DNA of 64,000 nucleotides from Amphibalanus amphitrite (lineage: Eukaryota; Arthropoda; Thecostraca; Balanomorpha; Balanidae), in contig NW_024881998.1 of NCBI RefSeq assembly GCF_019059575.1, positions 1-64,000 of the forward strand, read 5' to 3'. Positions within the stretch are counted from its first letter, which is position 1; every line of letters begins with the position of its first letter. The notes under the pieces are model-generated. The model ran no database searches, was not told where the DNA came from, and worked only from the letters and a program-made list of their open reading frames with translations. Shown here piece by piece: positions 6,035-63,889 of this stretch. A program made the translations under genes and the position numbers.

Positions 6035-7038
6035 TTAACCCTATTCCTGGCGGGGGGGGGGGGGGGGCCTCAGGAGCCCCCCCCCTGAGGTTTTTTGGTT
6101 ATTTCTCCCAAACGCGTTGAGCTAGGAAGCTCAAATTTTCTGACTTTTCCTAAAAGGCTTCTACGCAACATGTCTAAAAATTTTGAGTTGATCTGACCTC
6201 AGGTCAGGTCACCAGAGGCGGTTTGGTGACCCTACCTCAAAAAAGTTTGCAATCACGCCAGAGCTAGAGTTTTTGACCGATCAATTTCTTCTCTTCAGGC
6301 TTTAGTTAGGGTACCAGTATGTGCAATTTGTATATCTCGGAATTTTGATATCGGTGACCTAAGGTCAGGTCAATTTCGCGACCTCCCCATTATAAGTCAA
6401 TGGGGGAAAAATCAACTCCCTGTTTTTACCACTAAAACGGGTCGGAATGGCCCCATATACCATACATGACTTCATATACGATCAACCTTCACTACCTTGA
6501 GGTCTGTTTTGCTGTTGGGCAGCCGTGAGGTCATGTGACGTCATCAAAGGTCACCAAAGGTTTTTGGCAAATAACTCCGTACAGGAACAAGATACAGACG
6601 CGTGGATGGTCTCATTGTGTTCAGCTCGTCAAGACGCATCGAATGATATACATGATGACCTCGAGGTCACGTGACCTGAGGTCAACCTTTGACCTTGACC
6701 TTGCGAGGTCAACATATATATCATTCGATGCGGATTGACGAGAGGATCACGATGATGCCCTTAGTTTGTTCCTATCTTGACTAATTCGAAAGTTATTTTA
6801 GAAAAACTCTCTCCATATCTAGCGCCGCCATTTTGACTTTTTCGACCCCTGTGACGTCATCTTTGACCTGACCTGAAAATGACCTTTGTAAAAATTGTAG
6901 ATCTTGACCGTGCGTATCCGATGCCGTTTACCGTTTGTCGCTATCTTGCTTCGTTCTCGAGATCTCAGGGGGGGGCCGAATCGGCCCCCCCCCCCGCCAG
7001 TTTCTTGTCCCGGCGGAGCCCGCCAGGAATAGGGTTAA
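6035..7038. mobile_element. TTAA-flanked (piggyBac-type) MITE carrying AGGTCA clusters
   Basis: Body 6039-7034 (996 bp), with TTAA on both sides (6035-6038, 7035-7038). The terminal inverted repeat is CCCTATTCCTGGCGGG. TTAA duplications with CCC...GGG termini are the known signature of piggyBac-like elements. No transposase is visible. Both ends carry G-run/C-run hairpins (6051-6090, 6969-7001). The interior holds many AGGTCA/TGACCT half-sites, for example at 6192-6212, 6353-6380, 6656-6713 and 6857-6890. Its right end is closely similar, in inverted orientation, to the left end of the element at 62708-63885. Confidence 0.85.
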
Positions 7039-8829
7039 AAGGGTAATCAGTTTCGCTTATCATGACTTACTAGCAATATGATTGATAAATATAGCGTAAA
7101 TAGTAATTGTTGATGTTCTTGCGATAGGTCTTTGTGGTTCCTCAACGCTTTCCACCATACGCTCAAAAGTTAACGTGTGCATGAGTATGCAGGACGCAAG
7201 TTCAGTGTCTCCTGTCGGTAGGCGCATTTCCGAGTGGGACCCGCGACTTCCCCGTGGATGAGGGTAATGCGCCATCAGACGTCCGGCCTTCCTGGTGGGT
7301 CGATTATAATTAAGAATTTACATCTATACTTACATCGGTTGTATGCACCCACTTGCCAGGCGTTGAAATGCCCGGGCAGATCTGCAATGTTGTGATGATT
7401 CCGTAGTATTTTTTTAAGGGAAGAGTCCGTGCCCACGGAGTTCCCTTTCGGAATTTTTTTGGTAGGGCTCTAATGGTGAACTTTATATGAAAGCCATTCT
7501 TACCACACAGTGCCATAGTGCCAATATTAAAATAACAAAATTATGGGTAGTGCTCGGACACTACCAGCCATGTACAAAACGACATCGGCCGTGTCTCTAT
7601 TTCAGGGGAAGACCGCGTCTCTTTTGTACGGGGTAACTCCCTCGCTCTAAACTGTAGGTGCCAGATTCCTTGCCCCTCTGTTCGTTCCAGCTCCCTTTTT
7701 ACCCCTCTCGCGTTGTCAGACAGGCCAGTGCCCGGCGGCGCCCCTGCAGACATCAGCCGGACTATACCTTATCGTCCATCTGGCCGGCCGGCCGATACTG
7801 GTGTGCCAGCCGCCCATCGCCGTTCAATAATCGACCCACCTCCGCGGCTGGGCTGCCCTCGGCGCCGTATCGCACCCTTCTTATAGAATATTAAACTCTG
7901 GGTGTGTGAGCCTTGACTTCTATTCGGACGGTGACCACCCAGAGTCCGATGCGGGATATGGTTATCAACATTGCCAACATACCGAGTAAGTCATGTTGTT
8001 GGACTATCTGCTGCCTGTCACCGTCAGTGTTTTGACATGTGAGGCATATTACCTTTAATGACATGGCGGCTACCTACTCGTTAGAGCAGACATGCAGTTG
8101 ATGCGATCGCCAATAGTGCCCTGTACCTCAGAACTCGGGTAGCTGAGCACTATTTCAACTACCTATAACTCGCAGTAATGGCTCGAAATTGCAAAATAAA
8201 TATTTAAAGATTACTCTATGAGAAGGGAGAATCTCGACAATATGGCCGCCAACATAAATAAGCGACACCTGCAAACTATCTCGGCGTGGGTATAACATAT
8301 GTCGACGGGCGCCGATAGGCTGCTTTAATTACAAGACCGAGCCAGAGTAGGCCGCCCGGGGCGTGCCGGCGATCCGCTTCGCTCAAACAAAGCCCTGTTG
8401 CACAAGAGCACGCGTAGAACTGGCAGGTCACTCTCTCCCTCTCTCTCCGCCTGCCCCGGGCACTCTGCTCCTGTCACTGCCCATGGTGACTCCAGGGGAA
8501 CCCTGGAAGGAAGCCACCGCGGTGGCTGCTGCTCCCCGAACTCCCAGAATGCCATCACCGCGATCCGTGCGAGTTGAGTAACTCGTTTCTCGGCTCTGCT
8601 GTGGTTCCCCTGAGTTGACCCCAGGGTCTTCACCGTCCCAGTTCATCTCATAGTGGTAGGAATGGCACCTCGGGTGGCACTCTGAGGCCGTCTTTCTCGG
8701 GCGTAGTGCGTGCTAAGTACCGCCTTGTGGTGTCCTGAACGACAGAATCAATTTTCATTTATGATGCCCATGCGGTAGCCACTAGCAAGTTTAAACTTAC
8801 GTCCTTTGAGCTAAGCGAGTAGGTTAGGT
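7039..8829. other. Non-coding segment, nothing recognised
   Basis: Short overlapping frames only. No domain, structural RNA or transposon end was recognised. Confidence 0.4.
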
Positions 8830-8872
8830 ATCCTTTGTAATTGCTTCACTTAATGAAGCAACTACAAAGGAT
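8830..8872. repeat. Short stem-loop, 19-bp arms
   Basis: ATCCTTTGTAATTGCTTCA is followed by a 5-base loop and its reverse complement with a single mismatch. It could fold as a compact hairpin in RNA or as a cruciform. It is too short to be classified as a known element. Confidence 0.85.
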
Positions 8873-9039
8873 GACGTTAGCCTACGGGCATGTGTCCGCA
8901 AAATAACAGATATCTATTGACTGCCTCGCGCAACTGCCAAGTGGACATATTCCTTAGTGTCTACGACTATACATGCTGTGCAGTCCCTGGGTGTGCGGCG
9001 CCGAGTGACACTGGTCTCATGCTGTCACACCATCTCCGA

Positions 9040-9250
9040 TCCTTCCCCGCTGCCATGCACCACCCTCCGTCCCTCCCCAGAACAGTCACTGTCACCCCGC
9101 CTCCGCTCCCTCCCCGGTGTCCGCCCGCTGTCACCCCGCCTCCCTTCCCTCCCAGGTAAAGTCTCACCATAACTCCGTCCCCTCCGGGGGCTGACCCTAT
9201 CACCCCGCCTCCGTTCCCTTCCACGATGTCCACTGTCACCTCCCTCCGTT
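9040..9250. repeat. Degenerate C-rich minisatellite, period about 50 bp
   Basis: Blocks built from CCTCCGTTCCCTCCCC, a variable GGTGTCC-like word and CTGTCACCCCG recur four or five times with many substitutions. This is a decayed minisatellite with no coding sense. Confidence 0.6.
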
Positions 9251-11838
9251 CCCCGTGGTCTGACCACTGTCACGGCGCACGTCGTGTCGAAGTGTCGTCA
9301 GCGCAGTGACCGGCGGCTCAGGAATTCCCGACACGACCCGGCGCGGACCAGTGACACGCCGGGACTGCGGACAGCACCTGGGGCGTGGTGGGACTGCCAG
9401 CCTGTCACTTCGAGGGTCTAAACGCAGAGCAGGGACAGATAAATGTGGAGGTGGAAGTGGTGGATGGTGTTGGAAGAAGTGGTGGATTTGTGCGAAGGTG
9501 TCTCTTGATATACGTTTTGTGAAAATTGATGGAATATTATTCTGGAATTTACCTCTGGTTTGATTTTGACATCCGAATAAACCATAAAACTATCGTACTC
9601 TGGAATGTATTCCCCCGGCCGCTGGTGCAGGAATTTCTCACAGGACAGTGGGTGGGTGCCGGAGGAGGAAACTGGCCGGCCGGGGATCGGCGGTCGCTCT
9701 CTGTCCCGGTCAGACTCCCACCAGATGTGACACCGATAGACGTGCGGAGACCGCGGCGGCGCACCCGCCCCGCCGCCCATTAAAAACGGTGCAGCTCGGA
9801 ATGTTCTCAGATCGCTCTGCGGACGAAGGACAGCACCCTGGCGATCAGACGCGTTTCTCCGCAAAACTGGAACACCCACACGCAATAGAGGTATGCGCGG
9901 TATGGAACTGATTTCCCTCCTCCTTCCTTTCCTTTTTCCGATTGAAAATCATTTTGTCTTCCGCTTGACCTTATCATTAGGAGTGCAGAATGCATATCGA
10001 ATACCTTTCCTGATTTCACGCTGGGTGCATCAGAGGAGTTGGCTGCTGATAATCAAACAATCCAATTCCAACCAGCTAAAGTAATGGTAGAAAAACCGCC
10101 GAGTTAGAGTGCGATGTCATGCCGTTTTTCATGCATGATAAATCCGTTTATTCGCTCCTCTGCTCCTCGTCGTCAGTCATGGTTCCCGTTACGATTAGTA
10201 ACCCCGCACCCTCGCTGTTTAGCATATTGTCCGCATGTGTGAAGCCATTATAGTGGCAGTTGAAGGAAATGTGTCGGGTGCAAACAGATGATCAACAATG
10301 GATACAGACGTTCAAAGTGTCGTTAATGACTCGGCAACATCGGTTCTCGTTAGTCGAGTTGTGTTCGACAAAGAAGCTGCAGCGGACGTGGCGGTAAAGT
10401 TCACAGCCGGCTCCCGTCCCCAGCACTTACAAACTGATGTCAGAATGCAATAGAACGTTTGGACAGGGCAGAGGATGTGCCATTGTGGATGACTGAGCAT
10501 AGCAACAAACGATCTACGAAAGTGATGTTCCTTTGATGTCCAATATCTTTTGTTTGTTTATTTTTCCTGGTTGTATCTCTTTTACATAAACCATTGTATG
10601 CATAGGAGTATCTGCACTGCCGTGCCGTTTGATGACAAATAACTAAATACGAATGCACAATTATCTTCCTTTTAAGCACGCTCATTTTAGGCTCCGCGTA
10701 ACCGCGGTTTGTCTTTTGTTGCACCTATGGGCATTCAGCGGCCGCTCTCCCAGGTGCGTAGCTCCGCTGGCCGAAGCCCGCGGTGGTGCTGCTCTCCTCA
10801 ACAGTGAGGTCATCTGGGAGCAGCGCTCTCGAAGACAATCACAGGAAGGTTTCGGCAGGCGTGATCGGCCCCACTGCAGGAATGTGCCGAGACGTCGGCC
10901 GCAGCGCGAGATGTAGCGTCAGTTTCCTCTCCCACGAGCCTCCGGCTGCAGCTGAGCGGTTCACAGAGGGTCAGGGAGACGCTGGTGTGCCCAGGGAGAT
11001 AACCGCCCGGAGCATTGTTCACAGCACCGCCGCCAACTCTGCCGAAAAAATGCACCGTGCAGTGATCTCTGACCTGAGGAAGAGAGCGGGTGCGCTGGTC
11101 TCCGCTCCCGCTGCACACCTTTGACCTTTATGCAGTGCACCGTTTTTTGACAGATGCCAGTCCGTGCAGCCGCTGCAGCCTCCGAGCTGCGCCCGTCGAG
11201 GAGGCAAACGCGTGGTCGATGCGAGACGCTCGGGAGAGAAATCAGAGCATACCTGGAATTTCTCATCTGCGCGAACAAATCTGGTGCAGATTTGCAAAAC
11301 TTCTCAGAAAGCAGAGCGAGCGTGGACTTATGAATTTTGTTCGGAAAGCAGAAACAGAGGAGAGAGAAGATTTGGCAAAGGACTGGTGACCGATTTCTGC
11401 ATCGAGATCAGATAATTACCCGACACGAGACAAGACATGTTTCATCTTGGTTCACAGCTACTCCTATGATATGGAGCAATATTAATGATGGAAAGGTTGT
11501 CCATATTGTGGGAGCGCGCACTCTACCACGGACCGTTATCGCCTCTGATATTACGCTTTAATGGGCATTGCATGATGTATTGCACAAGTAGGTATTGCGT
11601 GAAAGTGGTTACTAAAAAGGTCACATATGCAGGTAATATTGGAGCTGATATACCTATGCTGATAAGTGTGAAAATATAGCGCACCATTCAGAACGACTGC
11701 TCACTTAAGAGACATGACTGCCGAACTGCAACAATTGAAGGGATTGTCAGCTTATAAAGGTTATGTCAGATACTTGCGTTACTTTTTCAGCACCATTCAT
11801 GCATTTGACGTACAGATACACCGGATGTAAAATCTGCT
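9251..11838. other. Non-coding segment, nothing recognised
   Basis: Open frames on both strands overlap and are low in recognisable content. No domain, tRNA or inverted-repeat element was found. Confidence 0.4.
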
Positions 11839-12246
11839 TAAAGGGACCCTCCCACCTTAACATTAGATTTGAGTTGAGATAGCCAAAATGGGGTCCCTGG
11901 CTCACAATTACCGGTTTCGGCACTCACAACAGCGCAAATACAACAGCGTGACGTCAGCGCAAATATCTAACCATTTTTAAATGTTTGACTAAAATGTTTT
12001 GCAGCACGCGGTGGTATATGCTATTTGCGCGCAACATCTGCCGCAAACGCCGCACTTCTAAAATAAAGTCGCTAGAAACAGCGGAGATCCCAAAAAAGTA
12101 AACAAAAGTAAAAGTCTAATATCTTGAAAACCGGTGAATATTTTTCGGTGAAATTTGGTAGATATTCGTTTTCGCTCTTTCTGAACCGAGCGACATCACT
12201 TTCATGCCGATTCATAAACTTTTTTGAAGGTGGGAGGGTCCCTTTA
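11839..12246. mobile_element. TA-flanked MITE, about 400 bp
   Basis: Body 11841-12244, with terminal inverted repeats AAGGGACCCTCCCACCTT and its perfect reverse complement at the right end. TA dinucleotides at 11839-11840 and 12245-12246 fit a TA target duplication, as in Tc1/mariner-type elements. There is no transposase frame, so it would depend on enzymes supplied elsewhere. Confidence 0.8.
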
Positions 12247-12861
12247 AAAACATGCGGTCACACGTCTCCCGGCCTAACACCAACGATTTGTCAAAACTCA
12301 TCACTGCCGGCAGTTTGATTGACTTTTTCCTAATTACATCTTATGTCACTTATCCTCAACAAACGTTACAGGGATTTGGCTTCAGCGTTCAATCGAAACA
12401 TGTGTTTACACGACACTCTAACTGCATCTTTCCATCCCACACGAACCTGCAGTCTGTCGCGCTAATGCTGCAGAAGCGGAGATGGCTGCTGCAGATATAG
12501 CTTCGCGGTGAGGTTGGACACCCGTCACCGGTGGTCTATAGTGAGGTGTACTGGATGTTCCGCGCAGGGAGCAGAGCACGTGGTAAGGGGGAGTGCGGAC
12601 AGGCTCCTGTCCCATGGTGCTCCTGTCTATTTAGTTTAGTTTAGTAAAGTTTAGTTTATTTCATAAACACTCTCGGGGTATGGTGGGCCCACTGACGAGT
12701 GCAGTCACATTTCAGACATTAAGCCAAATTAAGTTAAAAAATACACCTAATAAGATAGGTACATACAATCGAATGCATCAGCAATGCGTTCGGCAATATC
12801 TCATGACCAGTTTTTTCCACTGTATTGCACTCAGGTGCCAAACGTCTGCCTCACGCTGCTC
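12247..12861. other. Non-coding segment with a short TTTAG-like repeat
   Basis: Nothing coding recognised. A short run of TTTAGT variants lies at about 12628-12660. Confidence 0.4.
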
Positions 12862-13540: not shown

Positions 13541-13845
13541 CACTGAAAACAATTTAACCCAAGGCCGGCGAGTAAACCTGTGTTTCACGGGTACCCCCGT
13601 TTCTATATCCGCAACCATTTTTAATCACCCTCCCAGGAGTAGTGCTAGATCCCATTGCGGTGTAGTCGTACTTGCTCTGAGCGGATATAACCGCTCTCAG
13701 CGAACATGTCCGCTGAGAGCAGGGACGACTACACTGCAATGGGACATTACTGTACTCCTGGGAGGGTGGTTAAAAATGGTTGCGGATAGGGGTACCCGCG
13801 AAACACCGGTTTACTCGCCGGCCTTGGGTTAAATTGTTTTCAGTG
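13541..13845. mobile_element. Foldback (long palindrome) element, 305 bp
   Basis: Two arms of about 150 bp are reverse complements with roughly 90 percent identity by eye. The outermost 20 bases at each end (starting CACTGAAAACAATTTAACCC) match perfectly. The centre contains additional GAGCGG/CCGCTC self-complementary words. TTAACCC and GGGTTAA occur 14 bases inside each end, as in the TTAA elements of this window, but the symmetry extends past the TTAA. I therefore cannot tell whether the true ends are CACTG... or TTAA. No coding capacity. Confidence 0.85.
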
Positions 13846-13860
13846 CAGGTTGCAGTATCA

Positions 13861-17460: not shown

Positions 17461-19123
17461 CCGTGCGTCGATTGACACCAGCTAACTGTAGCGCCGAATC
17501 AACCTGTCTAGCTCCAAGCTCCCTCGACTGCTAATGGGCCGGGAGTGGCTCCGTCCGGTCGGCAGTCGGTCTGTCGGAGGCGGCGCTCGTGAGACGACCT
17601 GTGGTGACGGGCTGCACGCACTCCTCAGTCAGCTCGGCGGCCCCTGCTGCTGCCGGAGACGGGGCGCACGCGCCGACCCTGCCCCCGCGGCGACCCCCGG
17701 GGCAGATGGGGTGGATGGGAGGCAGTGGAGGCTGGGCTGGGCCGTGCTGAGAGGAGAGGAACGGATAGGTTGAGAGATGATGGCAGAGAACGAATCTGGG
17801 TATTGGGAAACGTTAGAGGGCTGGTGGCTGAATGACAATGTAAGACAGGCACCATGGACTAAAGGTTAGCCAAAGAATTAAACATATATGAATATTCCGC
17901 CCATAAAACGTTTTTTTCTCGCAAAGAATCAAACCGTGCTGGTTACGGTTGTTTTAGTGTCATTTTGCTCCTGTGTCAGGTATATCAAGCAAAAATGAAC
18001 AGAATTACCTGCCTGCACCATTCGAATCCAGCGTTGGCTGCGATGATAGCCAGGCGCTAGTGAGACGCTGTCTTTGAATTGTATTGTGATTCGAATATAA
18101 TGACTTCATACAGTGGTAACGGGTCGCCCGAAGCAGCTCTTGGAGGTGCCGATTTGCAACTGCTCAAATGGGACTATAACGCAGAACCGCTAGTTAGCTA
18201 AGCGATCACGCCAAGGCGGGCTGTCATACGAATTAATCTCCACAATTACGCGTGATGGCCGACCACTGAAGGTCCATCAGAGATATCACTAAGTGCGCTA
18301 TTATTAGATCGCCTTGCGAAACGGCGCAGTATCTATAGCCGCGCGGCCGCGGGTAATCGGCGGATTTCAGTCCGGTGGCTGTGTCGGTGGTGACCGGCAC
18401 GGCCCGGCCGCGCGGCAGGTGATATCCGGTGACCCATATCGTGTCCGTGCCGCCGGCCCCCTCCCGGCACGACCGCGCCCGCCAGCGGCCCCTTGCGCGG
18501 CAACCATTGATGGATGCCGCGCGGCAACAATCGACAATCATCCGCCGCCCCAAACACCAATATTTAACTCCTAATCAAGTGGTGCTCATTAACGGCGACT
18601 CTGGCGGTCCACAATAGCGCGGCCCCGCCCCTGTGGCGGTCATGAGCCCCCCCCCTCCTGCCCCTCACCTGCCCCCTCCCCCGCCCCCGCCCAGCACGGA
18701 GGCTGTGCACAGCAGTCAGCACAATAGCGGCGGCGGCCCCGCCCCGGTCATCCGTCCATCTACTCCACTCTATTCCACTCCACTCTACTCCACTCTACTC
18801 TACTCCGACCGGGGTGTGTCCTCGGCCGCCGGCGGTGCCCTCCCCGACCCAGATCTCATGACGCTGCCTCATCGACGCGTCCACCGCGCCTCCGCCGGAC
18901 ACCGAGCCGGTGAAAGTGGTCACCGGGCCATCAACCGGGCACTTTTTGTGCCCGCCGCGGCCCGAGAGGATTTTTTCCGTGTCGCCGATGCCCCGTCCGT
19001 GTTGGTGTGGCAGGTGGCTCGTGCCGTGCGCCGGTGGGTGGGCGCCCCGGGGCGCCCCGAGGCGCTCCGGGGGCGTCTCTGGGCGTCTTGTGTCACTCTT
19101 ATACCTCGATAAGGAACTCTCTG
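17461..19123. other. Non-coding segment with a CTACTC minisatellite
   Basis: No gene recognised. A short repeat of CTACTCCACT and TATTCCACT units lies at 18759-18806. The long frames around 18630-19110 are GC-driven and overlap on both strands. Confidence 0.45.
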
Positions 19124-19330
19124 CACTCAGAAAACACTTTGAGAACATTTTTGAATAAGGGCTCATATGAGTGCCAAAACAGGGCTCAAATCTGTATGAT
19201 TTTAAAATCGGGATCAGTTAGGCGCCCTTTTCGGGCTCAAAGTACATTAGCCCCGAAAGCGGCATCAGTTCGTCTTCCTTTTCGGGCTCAATTCGAGCTG
19301 CGTTTTAGGGCTCCATACGACATTCCGCCA
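19124..19330. repeat. GGGCTCA repeat-bearing remnant, left copy
   Basis: Starts CACTCAGAAAACACT and holds GGGCTCA at about 19157, 19184, 19232 and 19285, plus GTACATTAGCCCCGAAA. The same vocabulary appears in inverted arrangement at 28785-29093. This suggests either the two ends of one old interval or two copies of one repeat family. Confidence 0.45.
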
Positions 19331-19690
19331 TTCCGTCTTTTGCTGTTTTCAGTGCTATGTGTTGGTGTACCTACCGCCGTGATTTCAAAATGAATGGTAA
19401 GTTATTAGTTATCAGTTATCGCTATCTTTTAGAAAAAATCAAGATGTTGATGCTCATGCCATTTTAATCCCTTATCAATTAAAATTGTGGTGGCATTTGT
19501 TCAGAAAAGGTCTGATCTACAATTGTGGCGCCGTTGATACGAATACGCACGGGTTTGATTATTCGTTTTTCTTGTATTTGCGCCACATGAAAGCATCATA
19601 TCTGGATTCAGGATGTCAAATAGTGTAAGAATGTGCAAAAATTTTGTCTGGTTCTTCGTGATGATGTGATTGAAGCAATGCTTTCAAGGG
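19331..19690. other. Non-coding AT-rich segment
   Basis: No gene or repeat recognised before the tandem array. Confidence 0.4.
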
Positions 19691-20573
19691 TAGGTAAGGA
19701 TTTTGTTACTTGTTCGTAATGGTTATCTTGATGCTCAACTAAAATTAATCCTAACCTTGCCTACTAACCTATTAAGTTAAACTTAGTACCAATACCTACC
19801 AACCTACAACCTATTTGGATCTTTCATATACTTATAACATGCTGCTGCTTCTGCTAACATGCTGCGGAATGCTGGTTGACATGATGGAATGCTGGTATGA
19901 CAGTGTTCCATGTTTCAGAATTTTAGGTGAATAACCACACATGATGGGGAAAATGTTTTCATCCTAAAAATATGACAAGTGGCTTTATTTCATCTTTGCT
20001 AAAAAAATATGTCAAAAGTTTGATTCAACAGCCAGCTGCCAGGTTACGCATGACTTGACAGTTGATGCATCTACTCTACATCATTTCATTTCAGATCCTG
20101 TGAAGGTTCTGACAAAATCTGAGGTAAAAATGGCATTATGCAGTTTTGCGGAAAGACTAAATCTATCTCATTTTGTCTTCAGATTTTTTTTTATTGGGAC
20201 ACCCAATTGAAATCCAATTTTAGAACACTGTGACACCATGCCTGTGTGCCAAGTAAGAGGAAGGGTCTACAAGTATACATCAAGATAACCAATTATGGAC
20301 AAGTTGAGACTTGAGTCATGAGCTCTTATTTGTGGTTACAATACCTTCAACTGCATGATTTTGCACAACTTCCATACAGGCATCCAGACTGGAAAAGGTT
20401 CAAGTCCATACTTATTCTGGTGCTTGAATATGGCAGTTCAAAGATGGAAGGCATATGATGCTACAAAATGAAAAAAATAATTCAACTTACAAAAAATAGG
20501 TATTCATATCTATCCTAAACTAAACTAACCTAAACTTACCTAACCTAATCCAACCCAACCCAACCACCCCAAC

Positions 20574-20656
20574 CAGCCCAGCCCAGCCCAACCCAGCCCA
20601 GCCCAGCCCAGCCCAGCCCAGCCCAGCCCAGCCCAGCCCAGCCCAACCCAACCCAA
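20574..20656 (+). repeat. CAGCC pentamer array, unit 1
   Basis: About 14 GCCCA/ACCCA pentamers. They are preceded by degenerate CTAAC/CTAAA words (20515-20560), so a 5-base rhythm continues for about 140 bases. Confidence 0.9.
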
Positions 20657-21022
20657 AACATACAGTCTAAAACCTAGAGCTAAAACCTGCAGCCCAAACT
20701 GGAAAACATCCATATGGTACGCCGGACGCCCGTGAAGCCGTCATGCGCCGAAGTTCGGCGCAAGCTATTTTGCAATTTGCGCTGAAATTTCTGCATTATT
20801 TGCGCCGAAGGTTAGTGCCCTTTTGCGTCAAAATTAAGCCACTTATACAAAAAGCACGTTTACATCTGCTGGCCAAGGTTTTATAAACCAGACAGAACGC
20901 TCTGGGCCTTAACCACTCCTGACTCCCATGTTTGAGCGTCCAAATTAGTTGATGTTTCCATGGAAGCTGAATACCACAATACGTGTAGCGCACTGTAGCA
21001 TCGTGCCGTGAAATAAGGCTCG

Positions 21023-21993
21023 TAAGGTGCCTAATTAGCGACCCTTTCCGATTTGCGACCTACCTCCCTACAGAAAAACTGGCAGGAGAAAACGGGGTAA
21101 AAATATCGTCAAAAGGTCAGCCATACCTTGGTTATCAAATTAAATTATTTTCCGGTCGTCGATGTTTCTGGTGGGACGTTTCAGGTGAGTTTAAATAAAA
21201 ATGACGAGTTTCTTATTCAAAACGTGTGTGTTTGGGCCCTCTCTGATGAAAAACGATGCACATTAGGATGATGCACCTTTTTTATTCTGAATCGACGTTC
21301 CTTCTTCAATTGATTGCCGTTTTCCGATAGTGAATCGCTCAACTGTGCACAGCATGGCGGTTAAAAATGTGTCGCAACTCATATTTCCTATTTGCGCCTG
21401 ACATGGTCGCAAATAGCTCAAGAAGGGAAAGAAAGGGGAAAGAGAGAAATGAACATGAGGTGTTGCTGAGGCTTGCAATGTGTGGCAGGGGATGCCAAAT
21501 GTCGTCACCGACTGCAGGGGTGCCGAATTCAGCGCGGACCTCGAATATCATACGAGATAGCCCGCAAAATTTGGGTTTCCGCCTTCTTTTCGCCTTTCGG
21601 TGCATCACGTGATCAGTTTTTACTTCCGTAAATATGTTGGATAAACGTTCCTGTTCGAGTGATTGAGTGCTTTGCGTAAAGGTTACCTTTTTGAGATCAT
21701 ATTTCATCTTTTCAGGCGTCGCATTTTTTGCCATTTTTAATATGGGGAAACCCATAGACTTATTAGCGACCCTCCCCGGTCGCTAATCGGGAAGAGTTCC
21801 CTATTAGCGTTTTTTGCAATGGTTTGCCAAAATGCTCACTACAAATAAGTTAGTGAATATTGGGGCAGAAAATGGCTATATTTTAATAGAAAAATGAACG
21901 GTCTATCCGAAAATCAAGCCAGTAATACAGTGGCACCCACAGAGCGTGAGCAATGACGGTTCAAATTAAGGGGGTCGCTAATTAGGCACCTTA
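21023..21993. mobile_element. TA-flanked inverted-repeat element (B), copy 1
   Basis: The terminal inverted repeats AGGTGCCTAATTAGCGACCC match perfectly at both ends (21025-21044 and the reverse complement ending at 21991). TA at 21023-21024 and 21992-21993 fits a TA target duplication. Subterminal TTAGCGACC words recur, including a palindrome near 21763-21790. A 138-codon minus-strand frame (21755-21339) is Lys/Arg-rich in the middle. It matches no transposase that I know, so this is probably a non-autonomous element. Confidence 0.75.
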
Positions 21994-22879
21994 CCCTAGG
22001 TAAGGATTTTGTTACTTGTTCGTAATGGTTATCTTGATGCTCAACTAAAATTAATCCTAACCTTGCCTACTAACCTATTAAGTTAAACTTAGTACCAATA
22101 CCTACCAACCTACAACCTATTTGGATCTTTCATATACTTATAACATGCTGCTGCTTCTGCTAACATGCTGCGGAATGCTGGTTGACATGATGGAATGCTG
22201 GTATGACAGTGTTCCATGTTTCAGAATTTTAGGTGAATAACCACACATGATGGGGAAAATGTTTTCATCCTAAAAATATGACAAGTGGCTTTATTTCATC
22301 TTTGCTAAAAAAATATGTCAAAAGTTTGATTCAACAGCCAGCTGCCAGGTTACGCATGACTTGACAGTTGATGCATCTACTCTACATCATTTCATTTCAG
22401 ATCCTGTGAAGGTTCTGACAAAATCTGAGGTAAAAATGGCATTATGCAGTTTTGCGGAAAGACTAAATCTATCTCATTTTGTCTTCAGATTTTTTTTTAT
22501 TGGGACACCCAATTGAAATCCAATTTTAGAACACTGTGACACCATGCCTGTGTGCCAAGTAAGAGGAAGGGTCTACAAGTATACATCAAGATAACCAATT
22601 ATGGACAAGTTGAGACTTGAGTCATGAGCTCTTATTTGTGGTTACAATACCTTCAACTGCATGATTTTGCACAACTTCCATACAGGCATCCAGACTGGAA
22701 AAGGTTCAAGTCCATACTTATTCTGGTGCTTGAATATGGCAGTTCAAAGATGGAAGGCATATGATGCTACAAAATGAAAAAAATAATTCAACTTACAAAA
22801 AATAGGTATTCATATCTATCCTAAACTAAACTAACCTAAACTTACCTAACCTAATCCAACCCAACCCAACCACCCCAAC

Positions 22880-22962
22880 CAGCCCAGCCCAGCCCAACCC
22901 AGCCCAGCCCAGCCCAGCCCAGCCCAGCCCAGCCCAGCCCAGCCCAGCCCAACCCAACCCAA
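22880..22962 (+). repeat. CAGCC pentamer array, unit 2
   Basis: Same array as in unit 1, shifted by 2306 bases, with no length difference seen. Confidence 0.9.
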
Positions 22963-23328
22963 AACATACAGTCTAAAACCTAGAGCTAAAACCTGCAGCC
23001 CAAACTGGAAAACATCCATATGGTACGCCGGACGCCCGTGAAGCCGTCATGCGCCGAAGTTCGGCGCAAGCTATTTTGCAATTTGCGCTGAAATTTCTGC
23101 ATTATTTGCGCCGAAGGTTAGTGCCCTTTTGCGTCAAAATTAAGCCACTTATACAAAAAGCACGTTTACATCTGCTGGCCAAGGTTTTATAAACCAGACA
23201 GAACGCTCTGGGCCTTAACCACTCCTGACTCCCATGTTTGAGCGTCCAAATTAGTTGATGTTTCCATGGAAGCTGAATACCACAATACGTGTAGCGCACT
23301 GTAGCATCGTGCCGTGAAATAAGGCTCG

Positions 23329-24299
23329 TAAGGTGCCTAATTAGCGACCCTTTCCGATTTGCGACCTACCTCCCTACAGAAAAACTGGCAGGAGAAAACG
23401 GGGTAAAAATATCGTCAAAAGGTCAGCCATACCTTGGTTATCAAATTAAATTATTTTCCGGTCGTCGATGTTTCTGGTGGGACGTTTCAGGTGAGTTTAA
23501 ATAAAAATGACGAGTTTCTTATTCAAAACGTGTGTGTTTGGGCCCTCTCTGATGAAAAACGATGCACATTAGGATGATGCACCTTTTTTATTCTGAATCG
23601 ACGTTCCTTCTTCAATTGATTGCCGTTTTCCGATAGTGAATCGCTCAACTGTGCACAGCATGGCGGTTAAAAATGTGTCGCAACTCATATTTCCTATTTG
23701 CGCCTGACATGGTCGCAAATAGCTCAAGAAGGGAAAGAAAGGGGAAAGAGAGAAATGAACATGAGGTGTTGCTGAGGCTTGCAATGTGTGGCAGGGGATG
23801 CCAAATGTCGTCACCGACTGCAGGGGTGCCGAATTCAGCGCGGACCTCGAATATCATACGAGATAGCCCGCAAAATTTGGGTTTCCGCCTTCTTTTCGCC
23901 TTTCGGTGCATCACGTGATCAGTTTTTACTTCCGTAAATATGTTGGATAAACGTTCCTGTTCGAGTGATTGAGTGCTTTGCGTAAAGGTTACCTTTTTGA
24001 GATCATATTTCATCTTTTCAGGCGTCGCATTTTTTGCCATTTTTAATATGGGGAAACCCATAGACTTATTAGCGACCCTCCCCGGTCGCTAATCGGGAAG
24101 AGTTCCCTATTAGCGTTTTTTGCAATGGTTTGCCAAAATGCTCACTACAAATAAGTTAGTGAATATTGGGGCAGAAAATGGCTATATTTTAATAGAAAAA
24201 TGAACGGTCTATCCGAAAATCAAGCCAGTAATACAGTGGCACCCACAGAGCGTGAGCAATGACGGTTCAAATTAAGGGGGTCGCTAATTAGGCACCTTA
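23329..24299. mobile_element. TA-flanked inverted-repeat element (B), copy 2
   Basis: Second copy of the element at 21023-21993, at the same position in the next tandem unit. The terminal repeats and flanking TA are the same. Confidence 0.75.
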
Positions 24300-25186
24300 C
24301 CCTAGGTAAGGATTTTGTTACTTGTTCGTAATGGTTATCTTGATGCTCAACTAAAATTAATCCTAACCTTGCCTACTAACCTATTAAGTTAAACTTAGTA
24401 CCAATACCTACCAACCTACAACCTATTTGGATCTTTCATATACTTATAACATGCTGCTGCTTCTGCTAACATGCTGCGGAATGCTGGTTGACATGATGGA
24501 ATGCTGGTATGACAGTGTTCCATGTTTCAGAATTTTAGGTGAATAACCACACATGATGGGGAAAATGTTTTCATCCTAAAAATATGACAAGTGGCTTTAT
24601 TTCATCTTTGCTAAAAAAATATGTCAAAAGTTTGATTCAACAGCCAGCTGCCAGGTTACGCATGACTTGACAGTTGATGCATCTACTCTACATCATTTCA
24701 TTTCAGATCCTGTGAAGGTTCTGACAAAATCTGAGGTAAAAATGGCATTATGCAGTTTTGCGGAAAGACTAAATCTATCTCATTTTGTCTTCAGATTTTT
24801 TTTTTTATTGGGACACCCAATTGAAATCCAATTTTAGAACACTGTGACACCATGCCTGTGTGCCAAGTAAGAGGAAGGGTCTACAAGTATACATCAAGAT
24901 AACCAATTATGGACAAGTTGAGACTTGAGTCATGAGCTCTTATTTGTGGTTACAATACCTTCAACTGCATGATTTTGCACAACTTCCATACAGGCATCCA
25001 GACTGGAAAAGGTTCAAGTCCATACTTATTCTGGTGCTTGAATATGGCAGTTCAAAGATGGAAGGCATATGATGCTACAAAATGAAAAAAATAATTCAAC
25101 TTACAAAAAATAGGTATTCATATCTATCCTAAACTAAACTAACCTAAACTTACCTAACCTAATCCAACCCAACCCAACCACCCCAA

Positions 25187-25264
25187 CCAGCCCAGCCCAG
25201 CCCAACCCAGCCCAGCCCAGCCCAGCCCAGCCCAGCCCAGCCCAGCCCAGCCCAACCCAACCCA
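25187..25264 (+). repeat. CAGCC pentamer array, unit 3 (one pentamer shorter)
   Basis: Same array as in units 1 and 2 but one pentamer shorter, with AAAACCTAC instead of AAAACATAC just downstream. It distinguishes the third copy from the others. Confidence 0.85.
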
Positions 25265-25631
25265 AAACCTACAGTCTAAAACCTAGAGCTAAAACCTGCA
25301 GCCCAAACTGGAAAACATCCATATGGTACGCCGGACGCCCGTGAAGCCGTCATGCGCCGAAGTTCGGCGCAAGCTATTTTGCAATTTGCGCTGAAATTTC
25401 TGCATTATTTGCGCCGAAGGTTAGTGCCCTTTTGCGTCAAAATTAAGCCACTTATACAAAAAGCACGTTTACATCTGCTGGCCAAGGTTTTATAAACCAG
25501 ACAGAACGCTCTGGGCCTTAACCACTCCTGACTCCCATGTTTGAGCGTCCAAATTAGTTGATGTTTCCATGGAAGCTGAATACCACAATACGTGTAGCGC
25601 ACTGTAGCATCGTGCCGTGAAATAAGGCTCG

Positions 25632-26334
25632 GGACGGAAGTTCCGGGGTCACAAAAATTGGTGTGGCGGTGTTGTCGCGGCTGGCGGGCTCCAGCAAGGG
25701 GTTTAAGTTTACGACACCACTCTTGTTTCAGGAGAGGTGTCAGCGATTCGAGACTACTTGGGCATGCGGGCAGCGGGGTCGGCGTGGCTGCCTGCGGCTG
25801 CGGCCACACATCTTGGCGTCCTGGAGGCGGAGATGCTGATGGTGGCATGAGTCATCACTGGCTGCCCGATTTCCATGCTCCAAGACTCGCCGTGAGGGCC
25901 GAGGCGGGCGTCGTGCCGATGGAGAGATGAGGAGGGATGCGCTGGCATCGCGCCATACTGGCGAAGGCGCTCTCCCTCCCGTCGGAGGACCCGCCGCGTC
26001 GTGGCGGAAGCCCCCCCCCCCCCCAACCGTGACTGAAGTCAGTGACCGGCTGGAGAGAGCGCGGGGGAGCGGTGTGGGACCACTGGAGTGGCGCTGCCCG
26101 CCGAGGCGCGCTTATCCACGAGACTGCCCCCGTAGACGCCAACAGACGGCGTCACGGTCCACCTGGACCTGCTGCCGATCGGGGCGTCCGCGACAGCGAG
26201 GAGGAGTGCTGCGGAGGCGTGACTGGGAGCGCTCCCCCAGCGTGCGACGTGGGCCTGGGTCGACGGGTCTGCGACCGGGGGAGTAATAGGAAGGCGGCGC
26301 TGGGGTCCTCACCGAGCACCCAGACAGTACAACA
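25632..26334. other. GC-rich segment after the array, no gene recognised
   Basis: Base composition changes sharply at 25632. Short fragments read like coding (for example LGVLEAEML near 25812-25838), but stops interrupt all frames. It may be part of a decayed retroelement together with the next feature. Confidence 0.3.
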
Positions 26335-33350: not shown

Positions 33351-34256
33351 TTAACCCTCGCCCGCACATGGGGGAGGGGTTGCCCCCCCCCCAGGTAGTC
33401 TTTCTGCTCTGCACTCAACATTTTTAGACCTAGAAGGTTGATTTTTCGTATAGCTGCTCCTCTATCCTTTCTTGATGTCCACTGAAAACTTCAAGTTTCT
33501 GTGATTTTTGGTTTCGGAGATATGACCTTGTATTTCATGTCATGTCATGACCCAAATGGCCAATTCTCAACATCTTGCGTTTGCCGTGGGCCTTGTGAGA
33601 TTTTGACACCCTGATTTCGGCCTTTTTTGCCAGTCTTACCTCCCACCTATCATGGAACATGTTGTTCGACGATGTACAGGGGTCAAGGTCAGGGTCAAGG
33701 TCAACCTAGTTCATCTAAGATAATTGCGTTTTAGGCAAGCTGAATTTACTTTTTGTGAAGTTTTTTGACTGCATTTTTGGTAAAAGCTTCTCAGATCATG
33801 ATTTCATGTAATATGGACCCAAAAACAATCGGTGCACACATCAGTATACACACAGACACACACAGACATACAAATACATATGATTGACCTTGACCTAACT
33901 TGACCTGAAATGACCTCAGCAGCAAAATTCTGGTCGGGTAGTGTGACAAAGAGGTTCTAGCTGGCTTGGCACCAGAAAACAGCATCGTCATCGGTATTTG
34001 ATAAGCAGCGCACTTGATACCCAACGGTGACCCAAAACAGCAACATTTTTTAGTTTGACCTGACCTGGAAGGTCAATGACTGACCTGAGAAGGTAAAACT
34101 GGGTATTATTGAATTCGTCTCTTCCCAAAGAATCTTTTTGGTCTTTACCGCTAAGCTCTATCTCCAACAGGAACGAAACGGCGCGGGGGGGGGGGTGGCA
34201 ACCACCCCCCATGTGCGTTCTAGGATGGGAAAATGGCATGTGCGGGCGAGGGTTAA
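33351..34256. mobile_element. TTAA-flanked MITE with AGGTCA clusters, second copy type
   Basis: Body 33355-34252 (898 bp) between TTAA at 33351-33354 and 34253-34256. The perfect terminal inverted repeat is CCCTCGCCCGCACATG. G-run/C-run hairpins lie near both ends (33369-33393, 34185-34212). The interior carries GGTCAAGGTCA-type words at 33683-33705, TGACCTTGACCT at 33885-33896 and several TGACCT at 34053-34093. There is no transposase frame. Assignment to piggyBac-type rests on TTAA plus CCC...GGG termini. Confidence 0.85.
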
Positions 34257-43352: not shown

Positions 43353-44417
43353 TCAGTTATCCTCGGCTTCCAATGCCGGCTTCGTGTCCATATGCTCCGG
43401 AGAGGAGGCGGCCTCTGCTTCGTCCACCTCTTCGACGTCGATCTCGGCGGCCGAGTCCTCGGAGGCGGGAGAGCCGGAGGCGGAGACCGACCTCTGTGAG
43501 ACCGCGGGTCGGAACCCGCCGTCCAGGATGGTCGGCCCGTCCGACTCGTGTTTCCGCAGATGCCGGTCCAGGTTGGTCTGCTGGCCGAAACAGCGGTCAC
43601 ACAGCGGACACCGGAACGGCTTCTCCTTGTTGTGGATGTTGCGGATATGCCGCTGCAGGTTGGACGAGATGCTGAACGAGCGCTCGCAGTATTTGCACTT
43701 GTACGGCTGCTCGCCGGTGTGCGTGCGCAGGTGGCGCGTCAGGTTGGCCGAGCGGGGGAAGTTCTTGCCGCAGAACTTGCACGAGTACCTGTCCTTGTTC
43801 TTGATGACTCCTGGCAGGGGCACGCCTGGAGTGCGTCTGAGATGGATATGATCCAGCTGAGAACGGATCATCTCAAATGTCCCCGGCAGAATGAACGGAT
43901 AACTAGGCGCGGTGGCCAACAGAGGGGAGGCATACAGCTTGCTCTTGCCGTAGATGTCCATGAGAGCAGGACTGTAAAGCTGTCCCGCCAGCTCAGCCTC
44001 ACTGCCAGTATACAGTCTGGATCCATACTGCAGCTTTGTGACTGCTCCGGCCACATCTGCCGGGTCCAGGGCGGCCACCGCGCCCGGCGACACGGGCACC
44101 AGGTTCCGGTTCTCATCCTCCGTGTGCAGCCTCGCCGCCTTCACGGAGAGGTCGAGTGGCACCTCCTGGTCGCCGGAGGCGGCGGCGCGCTCCGGCGGCG
44201 ACAGCGTCGTCTCGCTGCCCGTGCCGCTGAGGTCGTAGGGCGTCAGCGCGCCGGCGGCCAGCAGGTCGGTGCGCAGCGAGAGCTCCAGCTTGCGCGGACT
44301 GTGCGCCTTCTCGCGCATCTCGAGACTGGCGGTGCGGTGGACGGACGGCGGGCTGACGAGCGAGTGGGCAGGCCGGACGAACATCGAGCGCCGGGCGAGA
44401 CGGGTGTCACTCAGGTC
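43353..44417 (-). CDS. ham: hamlet / MECOM-PRDM16 orthologue, terminal coding exon (partial gene)
   Basis: Encodes about 354 residues of the C-terminal half of a PR-domain zinc-finger transcription factor, which acts in the nucleus as a DNA-binding regulator. Counting from the in-frame ATG at 44477, a PLDLSVK motif (residues 107-113, a CtBP co-repressor site) precedes three C2H2 fingers: C233/C236/H249/H253, C261/C264/H277/H282 and C290/C293/H306/H310. Key words [29 protein letters not shown] and [11 protein letters not shown] are the signature of the second finger domain of PRDM3/PRDM16 and Drosophila Hamlet. An acidic tail ([12 protein letters not shown]) and a TGA stop at 43355-43353 follow. 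I start the exon at 44417 because a strong splice acceptor lies immediately before it, in phase 0. The PR domain and N-terminal seven-finger array are not visible in this window. Confidence 0.92.
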
Positions 44418-54264: not shown

Positions 54265-54922
54265 GGAGCGAGCGAAGCGAGCGTAGTCTTTCCTTAGATT
54301 AACGGAAATTTCTGAGTATGAGCGGCCGGCCGGCCGGCCGTGGTCACGCTTTTGCGAGGCTTATTTCTCAGCAACCACTTGACCGATTTACATGCGATAA
54401 TTTTTGTAGGGTAGCTTCATTCCTTCTACCAAGTATTGGACTATTCCCGATGCATGTGGGTGACCCCTTATGCACGTGCCACGTGCAAAACGAAGAGGTG
54501 TCACTTTTGTAATTGTTGCAATATCTCGGCAACTACTTGGCCGATTGCGCTGAAAGTTGGCATGTAGGTAGGCACCCACTAAGCAATGCATATCCATGTG
54601 CCAGAATTGAGGTGCTGCTGCACGTGCGCACGTGCAGGGGTCGATTCCAGATCTCGAGAACGGCTGGACCGATGGCGCTCAAATTTGGTACATGGTTAGG
54701 GACCGGTTAGTAGGGTGCCGTGCAAAAGTCAGTTGGGACCCATTTTGCACGTGCGCACGTGCAGGGTGCCGCTTCCAGATCTCGAGAACGGCTGGGCCGA
54801 TTGTGCTCAAATTTGGCACATCGCTAGAGACCGGTTAGTAGGGTGCCGTGCACAACTCAGTTGGAGGTACCCCCTCGCAATTTCGCACGTGCAAGGCTCA
54901 CCCTCTCGCTCGCTCCGTTAGT
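54265..54922. repeat. Tandem repeat block with paired CACGTG sites
   Basis: Four diverged units are marked by a G(A/G)CCGAT word at 54381, 54540, 54667 and 54795 (spacings 159, 127, 128). Each reads roughly as CTCGAGAACGGCTGGACCGA followed by CTCAAATTTGGCACAT. Units carry CACGTG words, twice as the 16-base palindrome GCACGTGCGCACGTGC (about 54620 and 54749). The block is bounded by ACGGAGCGAGCG on the left and CGCTCGCTCCGT on the right, a short inverted repeat, so it may be a mobile element. Confidence 0.75.
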
Positions 54923-56039: not shown

Positions 56040-56125
56040 GAGATAGGATGGGGACGGAGACGGAGACGGGACGGAGACGGGACGGAGACGGGACGGAGAC
56101 GGAGACGAGACGAGACGGAGACGGG
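56040..56125. repeat. GGGACGGAGAC minisatellite
   Basis: Repeated GACGGAGACG and GGGACGGAGAC units with small length changes. Confidence 0.85.

Positions 56126-56390: not shown

Positions 56391-56391
<1 letters not shown>

Positions 56392-56474
<83 letters not shown>
56392..56474. repeat. (CT)n microsatellite, about 80 bp
   Basis: Nearly pure CT dinucleotide run, on the opposite strand sense to the GA run at 2831. Confidence 0.98.
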
Positions 56475-56475
<1 letters not shown>

Positions 56476-60998: not shown

Positions 60999-61063
60999 GT
61001 TTTTCTCACAGACAATGACAATATTTACACTGTTTTTGTATTGTCATTGTCTGTGAGAAAAAC
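60999..61063. repeat. Perfect 25-bp inverted repeat (hairpin)
   Basis: Arms 60999-61023 and 61039-61063 are exact reverse complements (GTTTTTCTCACAGACAATGA... and its mirror) around a 15-base loop. AGTAACCTTAA flanks the structure on both sides in direct orientation (60971, 61065). It resembles a miRNA-like stem or a product of replication template switching. Confidence 0.9.
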
Positions 61064-62279: not shown

Positions 62280-62520
62280 CCGCGGCGGCGGGCGCACCTC
62301 CGGCAGCGGGCCGCGGGCCGCCGGGGTAGGGGGTGGGTTACTGGGGCAGGGGGCGTGTACCGGCACAGAGGGTACGCTACCAGAGGTGTACCGTACCGCG
62401 GTGGCGGGCGCACCTCCGGCTGCATGCCGCGTGCCACCGGGGCGGAGGATATCTCAGTGGAGCAGGGGCTATTTACTGGGGCAGGGGGCCAGGTACCGGG
62501 GCAAAAGGTTCTGCCCGGGC
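62280..62520. repeat. Imperfect GC-rich tandem duplication
   Basis: GGCGGGCGCACCTCCGGC recurs at about 62290 and 62405, and TTACTGGGGCAGGGGGC at about 62339 and 62471. This implies an old duplication of about 115-130 bp. The apparent frames are Gly/Arg-rich and probably not coding. Confidence 0.6.
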
Positions 62521-62703
62521 AAGAGGTGCCGTGACAGGGCAAAGGGCATGCCGATGGGGGAGAGGATGCTCTACCAAGGGCATAGGAACCGTACTCAAGC
62601 CAGGCAAGGGTACTCTGTTGGGGAAGAGGGAAGCCGGAGGTCGTAGGTTGGCCACCACATAAGGGGCGGGGCAGCCGCAGGAGAAAGGCTTATCAGTATT
62701 CTT

Positions 62704-63889
62704 TTAACCCGCGCCCCGTTGGGCTCTGCCGAGCAACGCGCCCGGTTGGGGGGGGGGCCATTTTGGCCCCCCCCCCTAAGATCTCGAGAACCACGCAACA
62801 TAGCGACAAGCGGTAAACGGTGTTGGATAGCCCCAACGGGGAACTACCTTGTGACCCAATTTTATTGACCTAGGTCAAACCGATGACGTCACAGGTCAGG
62901 TCAAAGGTCCAATTTTCACCGTTTACAGGCACTTCAAGAAATGCGTTGTAAAATCGAGTAAAATGCATTTCATTGAAAATCATCGATGGGGAAATGTACT
63001 TCAAACACATATTTTGCTATTTGAGGTCACTGATACCAGGTCAGGTCACAGAGGTCAGGTCACGGGGGGGTCACAATATGAAAGTGTCGTGTGATACATG
63101 TTTTATGGTCCATTTTACATGACAAATGCGATGATGTGGGTCAGGCAGCCTTTGGGGCCAGCTTAGATCACGTTTTGGTCAAGGTCAGGTCAAGGTCAGG
63201 TCAAGGTCAGGTCAAATTAGGTCAAATTTCAAAGTTAATATTTTTGCATAAAATGGGTATCGAATCGATGCAGATCGTCACGGGGAGTTCAATGGTGTTC
63301 TTTGTTTTGCCGTACGAGGTCTAGAATTGCTAAAAATTGAGTTCAAAAATTTGACGTCATCATTTTTGAACAGTTTTTTCGCTATAACTTGGCCAAAAAA
63401 CGAGATATCGATCTGAAATTTGGTATGTATATAGAAGAGCGCTGGGACTATCACATATATTCCGGTTTTTTCGAATTTCGGGAAAATTTTGGATTTTTGT
63501 CAAAGTTTTTCTAAAAAAATCAATTTTTTGATTTTTTTTAGGTCAAAAACCAAAAATTTTGAAAATCCGAGATAGCAGTTTTGTAGCGCCGCCTTTTGTC
63601 TACTAGACCATATAAAGAACTTTGAAATTGCTTGATAACTGTAGATTTGGTGAGCGTTTCAAGATTGCATGTTTTTTGCTCATTTTTGCTCGAACATGAC
63701 CTCAGTTTGACCTCAATAACTCCTGACCTAAGGTGACCTTAGACTTGAAATTTGGTGTGAAGGTGTCAAATTGATGCCCGGGAAGGTACTGAAAATTTGG
63801 CGGCGCTGCGCGCCGCCGTTTTCTTGCTATTCAGGAAAAACCACAGGGGGGGCCAAAATGGCCCCCCCCCCCAACGGGGCGAGGGTTAA
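62704..63889. mobile_element. TTAA-flanked MITE with tandem AGGTCA sites, third copy
   Basis: Body 62708-63885 (1178 bp) between TTAA at 62704-62707 and 63886-63889. The terminal inverted repeat is CCC(G/T)CGCCCCGTTGGG, with one mismatch. Palindromic GGGGCCATTTTGGCCCC-type hairpins sit near both ends. Half-site clusters lie at 62866-62911, 63025-63067, 63177-63228 and 63700-63745. The left 60-70 bases after the hairpin (GATCTCGAGAACC, TAGCGACAAG, CGGTAAACGG) match, inverted, the right end of the element at 6039-7034. There is no transposase. Confidence 0.85.

Follow-up and report, generated by a model that had tools for sequence, protein, structure and literature searches.

AGGTCA clusters at regular intervals in a group of TTAA-flanked elements of the barnacle Amphibalanus amphitrite

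We have analyzed a stretch of 64,000 nucleotides (hereafter the window) of the barnacle Amphibalanus amphitrite (assembly GCF_019059575.1, contig NW_024881998.1, i.e., contig 501, bases 1-64000), in which three elements flanked by TTAA, here called E1, E2 and E3, carry dense clusters of the word AGGTCA. A sequence-only reading of the window had described three TTAA-flanked elements with different terminal repeats, packed with this nuclear-receptor half-site. The three are present at the coordinates that it named, each lying between two TTAAs and having terminal inverted repeats (TIRs) of 16 bp that match at 16, 16 and 15 positions. Such matches are rare by chance, with only one found among 16,445 pairs of TTAA more than 6 kb apart when up to 3 mismatches of 14 were allowed. 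Their features are listed here, with the strand where one was assigned; units and nodes refer to the division into equal parts discussed further on.

6035..7038, E1, TTAA-flanked non-autonomous element, 996 bp between the TTAAs, 6 units of 166 bp, 18 AGGTCA
6039..6054 (+), E1 left TIR, CCCTATTCCTGGCGGG, 16/16 match with the right end
7019..7034 (-), E1 right TIR
6194..6211, E1 node 1, TGACCTCAGGTCAGGTCA
6355..6372, E1 node 2, TGACCTAAGGTCAGGTCA, 161 bp from node 1
6528..6553, E1 node 3, TGACGTCATC flanked by two AGGTCA
6656..6711, E1 node 4, with seven AGGTCA pointing both ways, in the middle of an imperfect palindrome (6612-6755)
6864..6885 (-), E1 node 5, three AGGTCA, with TGACGTCATC at 6852
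33351..34256, E2, TTAA-flanked element, 898 bp, 5 units of 180 bp, 11 AGGTCA
33355..33370 (+), E2 left TIR, CCCTCGCCCGCACATG, 16/16
34237..34252 (-), E2 right TIR
33523-33528, 33686-33703, 33885-33916 and 34056-34086, E2 nodes
62704..63889, E3, TTAA-flanked element, 1178 bp, 7 units of 168 bp, 21 AGGTCA
62708..62723 (+), E3 left TIR, CCCGCGCCCCGTTGGG
63870..63885 (-), E3 right TIR, 15/16
62866-62903, 63024-63062, 63182-63224, 63540-63545 and 63697-63739, E3 nodes with AGGTCA
63352..63359, TGACGTCA near E3 node 4, where AGGTCA is lacking, unlike at the other 14 internal nodes
62748..62829, subterminal stretch of E3 found also in E1 (6915-6994, reversed), 84% identity in 82 bp, with a GC-rich hairpin in it

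The terminal repeats do differ among the three elements (that of E3, both ends combined, reads CCC[G/T]CGCCCCGTTGGG, 15/16 matching), and yet E1 and E3 have the subterminal stretch in common. No reading frame of at least 150 amino acids starting with ATG, GTG or TTG was found inside E1-E3, and the comparison with Rfam at gathering thresholds gave 0 matches. As single-stranded DNA, E1 and E2 folded more stably than their shuffled versions, with z values of -10.0 and -5.2, respectively (E3 was not folded whole), but folding was dropped as evidence, as runs of G and C together with the E1 palindrome explain much of it (judged by eye) and the energies of 140-nt windows were without a clear phase.

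Counted on either strand, AGGTCA was found 18, 11 and 21 times in E1, E2 and E3, against means of 0.56, 0.57 and 0.48 (maximum 4) in 1000 dinucleotide shuffles per element, so that the elements are indeed packed with the word. It was the top over-represented hexamer of the three elements pooled (50 versus 1.6), and the maximum among 579 one-kb windows outside the elements was 4. The enrichment belongs to the E1-E3 group and not to TTAA elements generally, because two other TTAA elements of the window (11838-12247 and 13554-13832) contain none. In the genome (807,550,619 bases in 2644 contigs) we took as an independent sample positions 300001-310000 of contigs C1-C25, 250 kb in total, chosen by a fixed rule and not at random. 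This sample contained 610 AGGTCA, a density of 2.44 per kb. Its first 200 kb had 466 where a first-order model predicts 89.6, a 5.2-fold excess that places the word beyond what composition predicts, the comparison on which the sequence-only reading had made itself depend. Only two phases of a GA simple repeat ranked above AGGTCA, third of 2079 hexamers in the same 200 kb.

The clusters are placed at regular intervals along the elements. They are found at positions 164, 325, 502, 644 and 835 of the 996 bp of E1, at 171, 340, 545 and 715 of the 898 bp of E2, and at 177, 338, 494, 835 and 1011 of the 1178 bp of E3. The best division into equal parts from end to end was into 6, 5 and 7 units of 166, 180 and 168 bp, respectively, with p values of 0.0003, 0.0037 and 0.0003 when the number of units was left free (cluster threshold 45). 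None of 3000 random placements fitted jointly as well, nor did any of 20,000 in a separate run. The resulting comb of about 165 bp has 48 of the 50 half-sites within 30 bp of an internal node and AGGTCA at 14 of the 15 nodes. The remaining node has TGACGTCA, a word whose four copies in E1-E3 are all within 30 bp of nodes. The spacers between clusters (n=17, sorted by hand) had a median of 152 bp. Half-sites are also oriented, pointing inward in 40 of 50 cases in E1-E3 (cluster-level p=0.0023) and in 133 of 162 in nine elements of the sample. Both the comb and the inward orientation were missed by the sequence-only reading, and neither is predicted by scattered hormone-response sites.

The comb was first seen by eye in the window and tested afterwards, and therefore independent sequence was required. 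In the sample, the distances from one cluster to the next that fell within 46-260 bp (n=134) had a median of 165 bp, and 93 of them were at 140-200 bp. Same-strand AGGTCA pairs numbered 318 at gaps of 146-176 bp, against 16 at 81-111 and 17 at 211-241, and a second peak appeared at about 304-366 bp. Part of these pairs came from locus L079, where an array of AGGTCA clusters (7110-9911, 54 half-sites, many steps of 136-150 bp) has apparently grown in tandem from an AGGTCA element; when the array was removed the three counts became 287, 11 and 12. Over the whole genome, the gap of 146-176 bp was found in 294,055 + 291,776 = 585,831 AGGTCA pairs against 3,884 + 3,347 = 7,231 for the reversed word, counts that take in near-identical copies and so refer to sequences rather than to independent events. 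The pair count of the sample, scaled by hand, would give about 1.03 million, more than the genome-wide count, so the sample is richer than the genome average.

Nine AGGTCA-rich TTAA elements from the first 200 kb of the sample were tested for the comb with the number of units fixed by their length. Tandem-array artefacts (L068; L070 at 939 and 1776; L072 at 97 and 219) and combinations across two elements had been left out before the nine were chosen, as was L069 6845-9253, which has non-CCC ends and 12 AGGTCA. The comb fitted at p<=0.005 in five (L069_1597, L070_7956, L074_2802, L074_5952 and L074_7121) and at p=0.027 in L070_6508. Three more complete elements and, besides them, an interrupted one appeared in the further 50 kb of the sample, in a scan that listed pairs of ends starting with CC, AG, GG or AA; the one at L091 7415-8319 has ends and a cluster layout like those of E2. 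In a compound element at L076 1940-3087, which has other ends (AGCCTTATCAATTG), a stretch of roughly 300 bp of E1 is matched three times, each time in the direction opposite to the one before.

The arrangement of neighbouring half-sites was compared with that of nuclear-receptor response elements, which consist of RGKTCA half-sites in direct repeats with spacers of one to five bases, DR1-DR5 (PMC1785376). That the words often form direct repeats, as had been noted before, was borne out, but the commonest adjacent pair in E1-E3 was the overlapping AGGTCAGGTCA (DR-1, an overlap of one base), with 10 of the 34 pairs within 12 bp. The others included DR3 once, DR4 four times and DR5 twice, with DR1 and DR2 at 0. 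In the 250 kb of the sample the overlapping DR-1 was found 87 times, and the remaining counts were DR1 21, DR2 6, DR3 0, DR4 47, DR5 21, DR6 24 and DR9 20. DR4 was the commonest of DR0-DR12 and came from 15 of the 25 loci, with the spacer GGTC in 9 cases and other, varied spacers in 38. The frequent DR4 and DR1 together with the lack of DR3 look like receptor dimer sites, but DR6, DR5 and DR9 are frequent too. Extended monomer sites gave no separate signal, since the TCA that precedes 7 of the 50 half-sites always belongs to an adjoining GGTCA word (by eye).

The sequence-only reading had proposed that the half-sites serve mainly to regulate neighbouring host genes through nuclear receptors. 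The large excess of exact AGGTCA and the sample profile, with DR4 at the top, DR1 present, DR3 absent and varied DR4 spacers, speak for such a distribution of hormone-response sites, and there is a precedent in the DR2 retinoic acid response elements borne by Alu, a transposon that spreads receptor half-sites in huge numbers. Those described for Alu are mainly DR2, with receptor binding shown at several (PMC1785376), whereas the barnacle elements have many putative sites each, as DR-1, DR4 and DR1, and on a comb. However, comb and inward orientation belong to the element as such, and a host enhancer would have no need of them. Besides, the suggestion that the elements lie near or within a developmental regulator holds only in a weak form, as E2 lies past the 3' end of a MECOM/hamlet-like frame (43353-44384), the sole regulator identified in the window, at a distance of about 9 kb. 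We regard regulation of host genes as the main role of the half-sites as quite improbable.

The half-sites are better preserved than the sequence around them. Over six pairs of related elements the partner had kept 75 of 99 AGGTCA unchanged, as compared with 331 of 785 matched words (p=1e-11), the control words being non-overlapping, with three G/C and no CpG. The total takes one direction each from 6 of 12 family pairs that share some elements and so are not independent, and the clusters may help to anchor the alignments; all 12 pairs show retention in the same direction. Isolated half-sites, informative because slippage cannot easily regenerate them, were retained in 18 of 26 cases (p=0.005). 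The units themselves are mostly unlike, with only 2 of 153 unit pairs in E1-E3 above the null maximum, namely the end common to E1 and E3 and the palindrome around E1 node 4. Half-sites and spacing are thus conserved and most of the intervening sequence is not. As E1-E3 encode no visible protein, the retention would reflect selection on the movement or maintenance of the element.

A decayed satellite of identical units was rejected for E1-E3, as masked autocorrelation, word-lag counts and all-pairs alignment gave no general homology between units, and on these grounds the idea that they arose in tandem recently was put aside. Tandem origin stays alive for other copies, given the L079 array. 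A broader version is that the elements are neutral relics of the tandem duplication of units of about 165 bp, with AGGTCA clusters as slippage-prone remnants bound by nothing. The array makes it conceivable, and so does the observation that runs mixing the 5-bp and 6-bp forms of AGGTC(A) can form in unrelated DNA (L059). There are also dispersed elements with central repeats of 140-180 bp, the non-autonomous bivalve Helentrons Pearl and Cg_HINE (the latter of oyster), which resemble E1-E3 in being short and dispersed with units mostly in that range. Their units are homologous satellite-like tandem repeats within Helentron ends (PMC7492417); E1-E3 differ in having TTAA/CCC ends, and no homology is detectable among most of their units. 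In two of the six pairs isolated half-sites were not retained above control (1/3 versus 0.41 and 4/6 versus 0.69), in agreement with neutral decay, but they are when pooled, and half-sites in general persist amid divergence. Nor are the DR4 spacers decayed copies of GGTC, since 5 of the 38 others are within 2 mismatches of it against about 10 expected (a hand calculation). Considering both sides, we find a neutral origin rather unlikely.

E1-E3 are part of a large, partly young group of TTAA elements. E1 had 40 scored near-full places in the genome at 98-100% identity, the window copy included (of 1754 candidates), from which we infer a recent spread. The exact 20-bp end of E3 with its TTAA was found at 1,527 places, against 0 for the reversed word. 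Together with the excess of AGGTCA in the sample, this supports the claim that the elements are transposons which spread the word over the genome. Several of the nine sample elements tested for the comb are relatives of E3, with 74-93% identity over 99-1191 bp, or of E1, with 68-84% over parts. At L089 a copy of the E3 family (1702-2884) is nested inside another element. When the flanks are joined with a single TTAA they amount to 1135 bp, and an uninterrupted copy of 1134 bp is 98.7% identical. The nested copy is a precise TTAA insertion, and its insertion point falls within an AGGTCA node, a single case that proves no preference.

The best home of these elements appears to be the piggyBac superfamily. 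The assignment is based on the TTAA target with precise insertion, the CCC ends and the presence in the genome of 116 scored matches to the piggyBac-type transposase (PF13843, DDE_Tnp_1_7), many with open frames. PiggyBac TIRs are described as 12-19 bp long with the end motif CC[C/T]T (PMC2872659). Both ends of E1 and E2 and the right end of E3 start with CCCT; the left end of E3 and most AGGTCA-rich elements of the sample start with CCCG, and such E3-type ends, with CCCG on one or both sides, differ from CCYT. The Kolobok superfamily, including T2-MITE, has the same TTAA target duplication but is described as having terminal AGGRR or RR (PMC6004289), and was rejected for E1-E3 as they start with CCC. 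Among known families, the piggyBac-type CMITEs of Acropora corals, miniature inverted-repeat transposable elements (MITEs), are alike in the TTAA target, in CCC-type TIRs that differ between families and in that the interior varies less from family to family than the TIRs do; their authors suggest that the interior aids transposition. Going by their description, they differ in being about 100 bp long with one conserved core of 75 bp (PMC2872659); the barnacle elements have 0.9-1.2 kb and 5-7 mostly unrelated units with AGGTCA nodes in common. Like MITEs, E1-E3 are non-coding and have TIRs, and near-identical copies were found for E1. Typical MITEs are shorter than the roughly 1 kb of E1-E3.

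Three of the 116 transposase loci were read. L093 contains a complete-looking autonomous piggyBac (173-2853) with bounded ends, TIRs CCCATTAGTGCCCA, a frame of 595 amino acids and only 2 AGGTCA in 2.7 kb; at L094 and L095 no bounded ends were found in the stretch taken, and no autonomous copy with the TIRs of E1-E3 was present among the three. The family of L093 may be active, as an open frame of 604 amino acids of its type is found at 11 places with near-equal scores. Its ends resemble those of an AGGTCA-free element, L081 6474-7387.

These transposases bring in a different explanation, namely that AGGTCA and the palindromes that it forms are binding sites of a piggyBac-type transposase, repeated inward for avidity. 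The piggyBat and piggyBac transposases are described as binding palindromes near the ends through zinc-binding C-terminal domains (PMC11707139), the half-sites do run inward from both ends, and the everted palindrome TGACCTnAGGTCA was found 22 times in the sample (everted repeats with a spacer of one base, ER1). In several elements AGGTCA comes nearer to the tips: the outermost half-site of L076_1940 is 57 bp away at both ends, the first or last one is at 103 bp in L072_6282 and 111 bp in L070_6508 (with inner spacings of 142-195 bp retained in these two), and the first cluster of L089_6930 is at 99. Binding sites close to the tips are what is classically expected for a transposase. However, in E1-E3 the word is at least 146 bp from every tip, and the footprint given for the left end of piggyBat covers about the outer 120 bp (PMC11707139). 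Moreover, AGGTCA spans the whole length of the elements and is common to elements with different TIRs, all this in a genome in which the autonomous L093 has hardly any and a 906-bp CCC-TTAA element (L081 6474) has none. Transposase binding therefore seems to us a minor candidate, about as improbable as the neutral relic.

The reading that we favour, tentatively and at rather less than even confidence, is that E1-E3 are piggyBac-type transposons of the non-autonomous kind and that they retain their AGGTCA clusters because the clusters promote the spread of the element, probably through a protein located in the linkers of regularly placed nucleosomes. A role for the element itself comes first on account of the comb, the orientation and the retention of the half-sites. 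Nucleosomes filling the spacers of about 150 bp, with an AGGTCA-recognizing protein occupying the linkers between them, are suggested by the match of the comb and its spacers to what such an arrangement would produce. The leading candidate for the protein would be a nuclear receptor, alone or as dimers on DR4 or DR1, as fits the half-site word and the predominance of DR4 (47) and DR1 (21) over DR3 (0) in the sample. An element would then correspond to a whole number of nucleosomes with linkers and ends accessible, this accessibility would aid excision and insertion in the germ line, and the half-sites spread over the host genome would be a by-product, used by the host or not.

Several observations weigh against this proposal. 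The 10-bp WW periodicity of E1 and E2 did not rise above background and that of E3 was marginal (0.32, 0.33 and 0.05, respectively, as fractions of 116 background windows), and GC near the nodes was slightly raised in E1 and flat in E2 and E3. The comb did not fit three of the nine sample elements (L075_1186, p=0.085; L072_6282, 0.12; L076_1940, 0.94), and the distance from the tip to the first cluster varies, with 57-111 bp in some elements of the sample. Since the steps of the L079 array are mostly 136-150 bp, some of the periodicity comes from plain tandem duplication, and to this must be added the near-identical copies in the pair counts and the two pairs without retention of isolated half-sites mentioned above. 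As to the nuclear receptor, the commonest pair AGGTCAGGTCA falls outside DR1-DR5 and has no standard receptor spacing, and DR3 is present once in the window elements. Two one-mismatch variants are also enriched in E1-E3 (ACGTCA 8 versus 0.8, due to TGACGTCA x4 with both strands counted; GGGTCA 8 versus 1.4), and AGTTCA, which receptors permit, is not clearly so (3 versus 1.4).

More speculative than the favoured reading, and in our estimate about one chance in three, is a wider version in which the whole transposon group is built at nucleosome measure: a host AGGTCA-binding protein would keep the linkers open, and selection on transposition would keep the sites as the spacers change or are swapped. 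By extrapolation from the sample and from the number of pairs, the group would have added around a million half-sites to the genome and thereby rewired the placement of this protein. The data separate two ideas, that of transposons carrying factor sites by chance and that of transposons whose success depends on them, and the comb, the inward orientation and the half-site retention favour the second. If the clusters do lie in linkers, the elements would offer a natural system of many copies in which to test directly whether the length and sequence of a DNA transposon are shaped by chromatin packaging. They would also account for nuclear-receptor half-sites being several times too frequent in this barnacle, an excess that would mislead searches for hormone targets based on motifs.

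In IMG/VR, tandem AGGTCA was found at 47 loci, but the 29 with at least 8 per kb were mostly one-strand runs in multiples of 6, unlike E1-E3, and the viral parallel was dropped. Three further patterns gave 0, 1 and 0 loci there and a fourth 10 loci of low density; the bacterial scan gave a single slippage run. Among the literature matches listed, titles and opening lines of abstracts mentioned no AGGTCA-rich piggyBac MITEs, no such barnacle repeats and no AGGTCA comb in transposons.

The MECOM/hamlet-like frame of the window (minus strand) codes for 343 amino acids in a single exon, 82% identical to a MECOM-like protein of Pollicipes pollicipes, and contains three zinc fingers and a PLDLS motif, presumably of the CtBP type. 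The window contained no matching exon for the PR domain of relatives, nor one for their first block of fingers. The TTAA element at 11838-12247 (410 bp) has ends AGGGACCCTCCC (AGGGACCC), TTAA-AGGGA, with a similar end at L090 6596; it is probably Kolobok-like, as it fits Kolobok better than E1-E3 do. The one at 13554-13832 (279 bp) has perfect ends CCCAAGGCCGGCGAGT (CCCAAGGCC) and looks like one long palindrome. Two tandem units of 128 bp at 54619-54864 have the word CTCGAGAAC in common with the end of E3. Outside the window, L068 6606-8895 is occupied by a tandem array that repeats about every 135 bp; each unit has several TTAA sites and palindromic words, and AGGTCA is absent. Finally, a segment at 19100-25900 of the window is present in three tandem copies with steps of about 2306 bp, a duplication that is either recent or an assembly artefact, because probes of 300 bp were mostly 100% identical.

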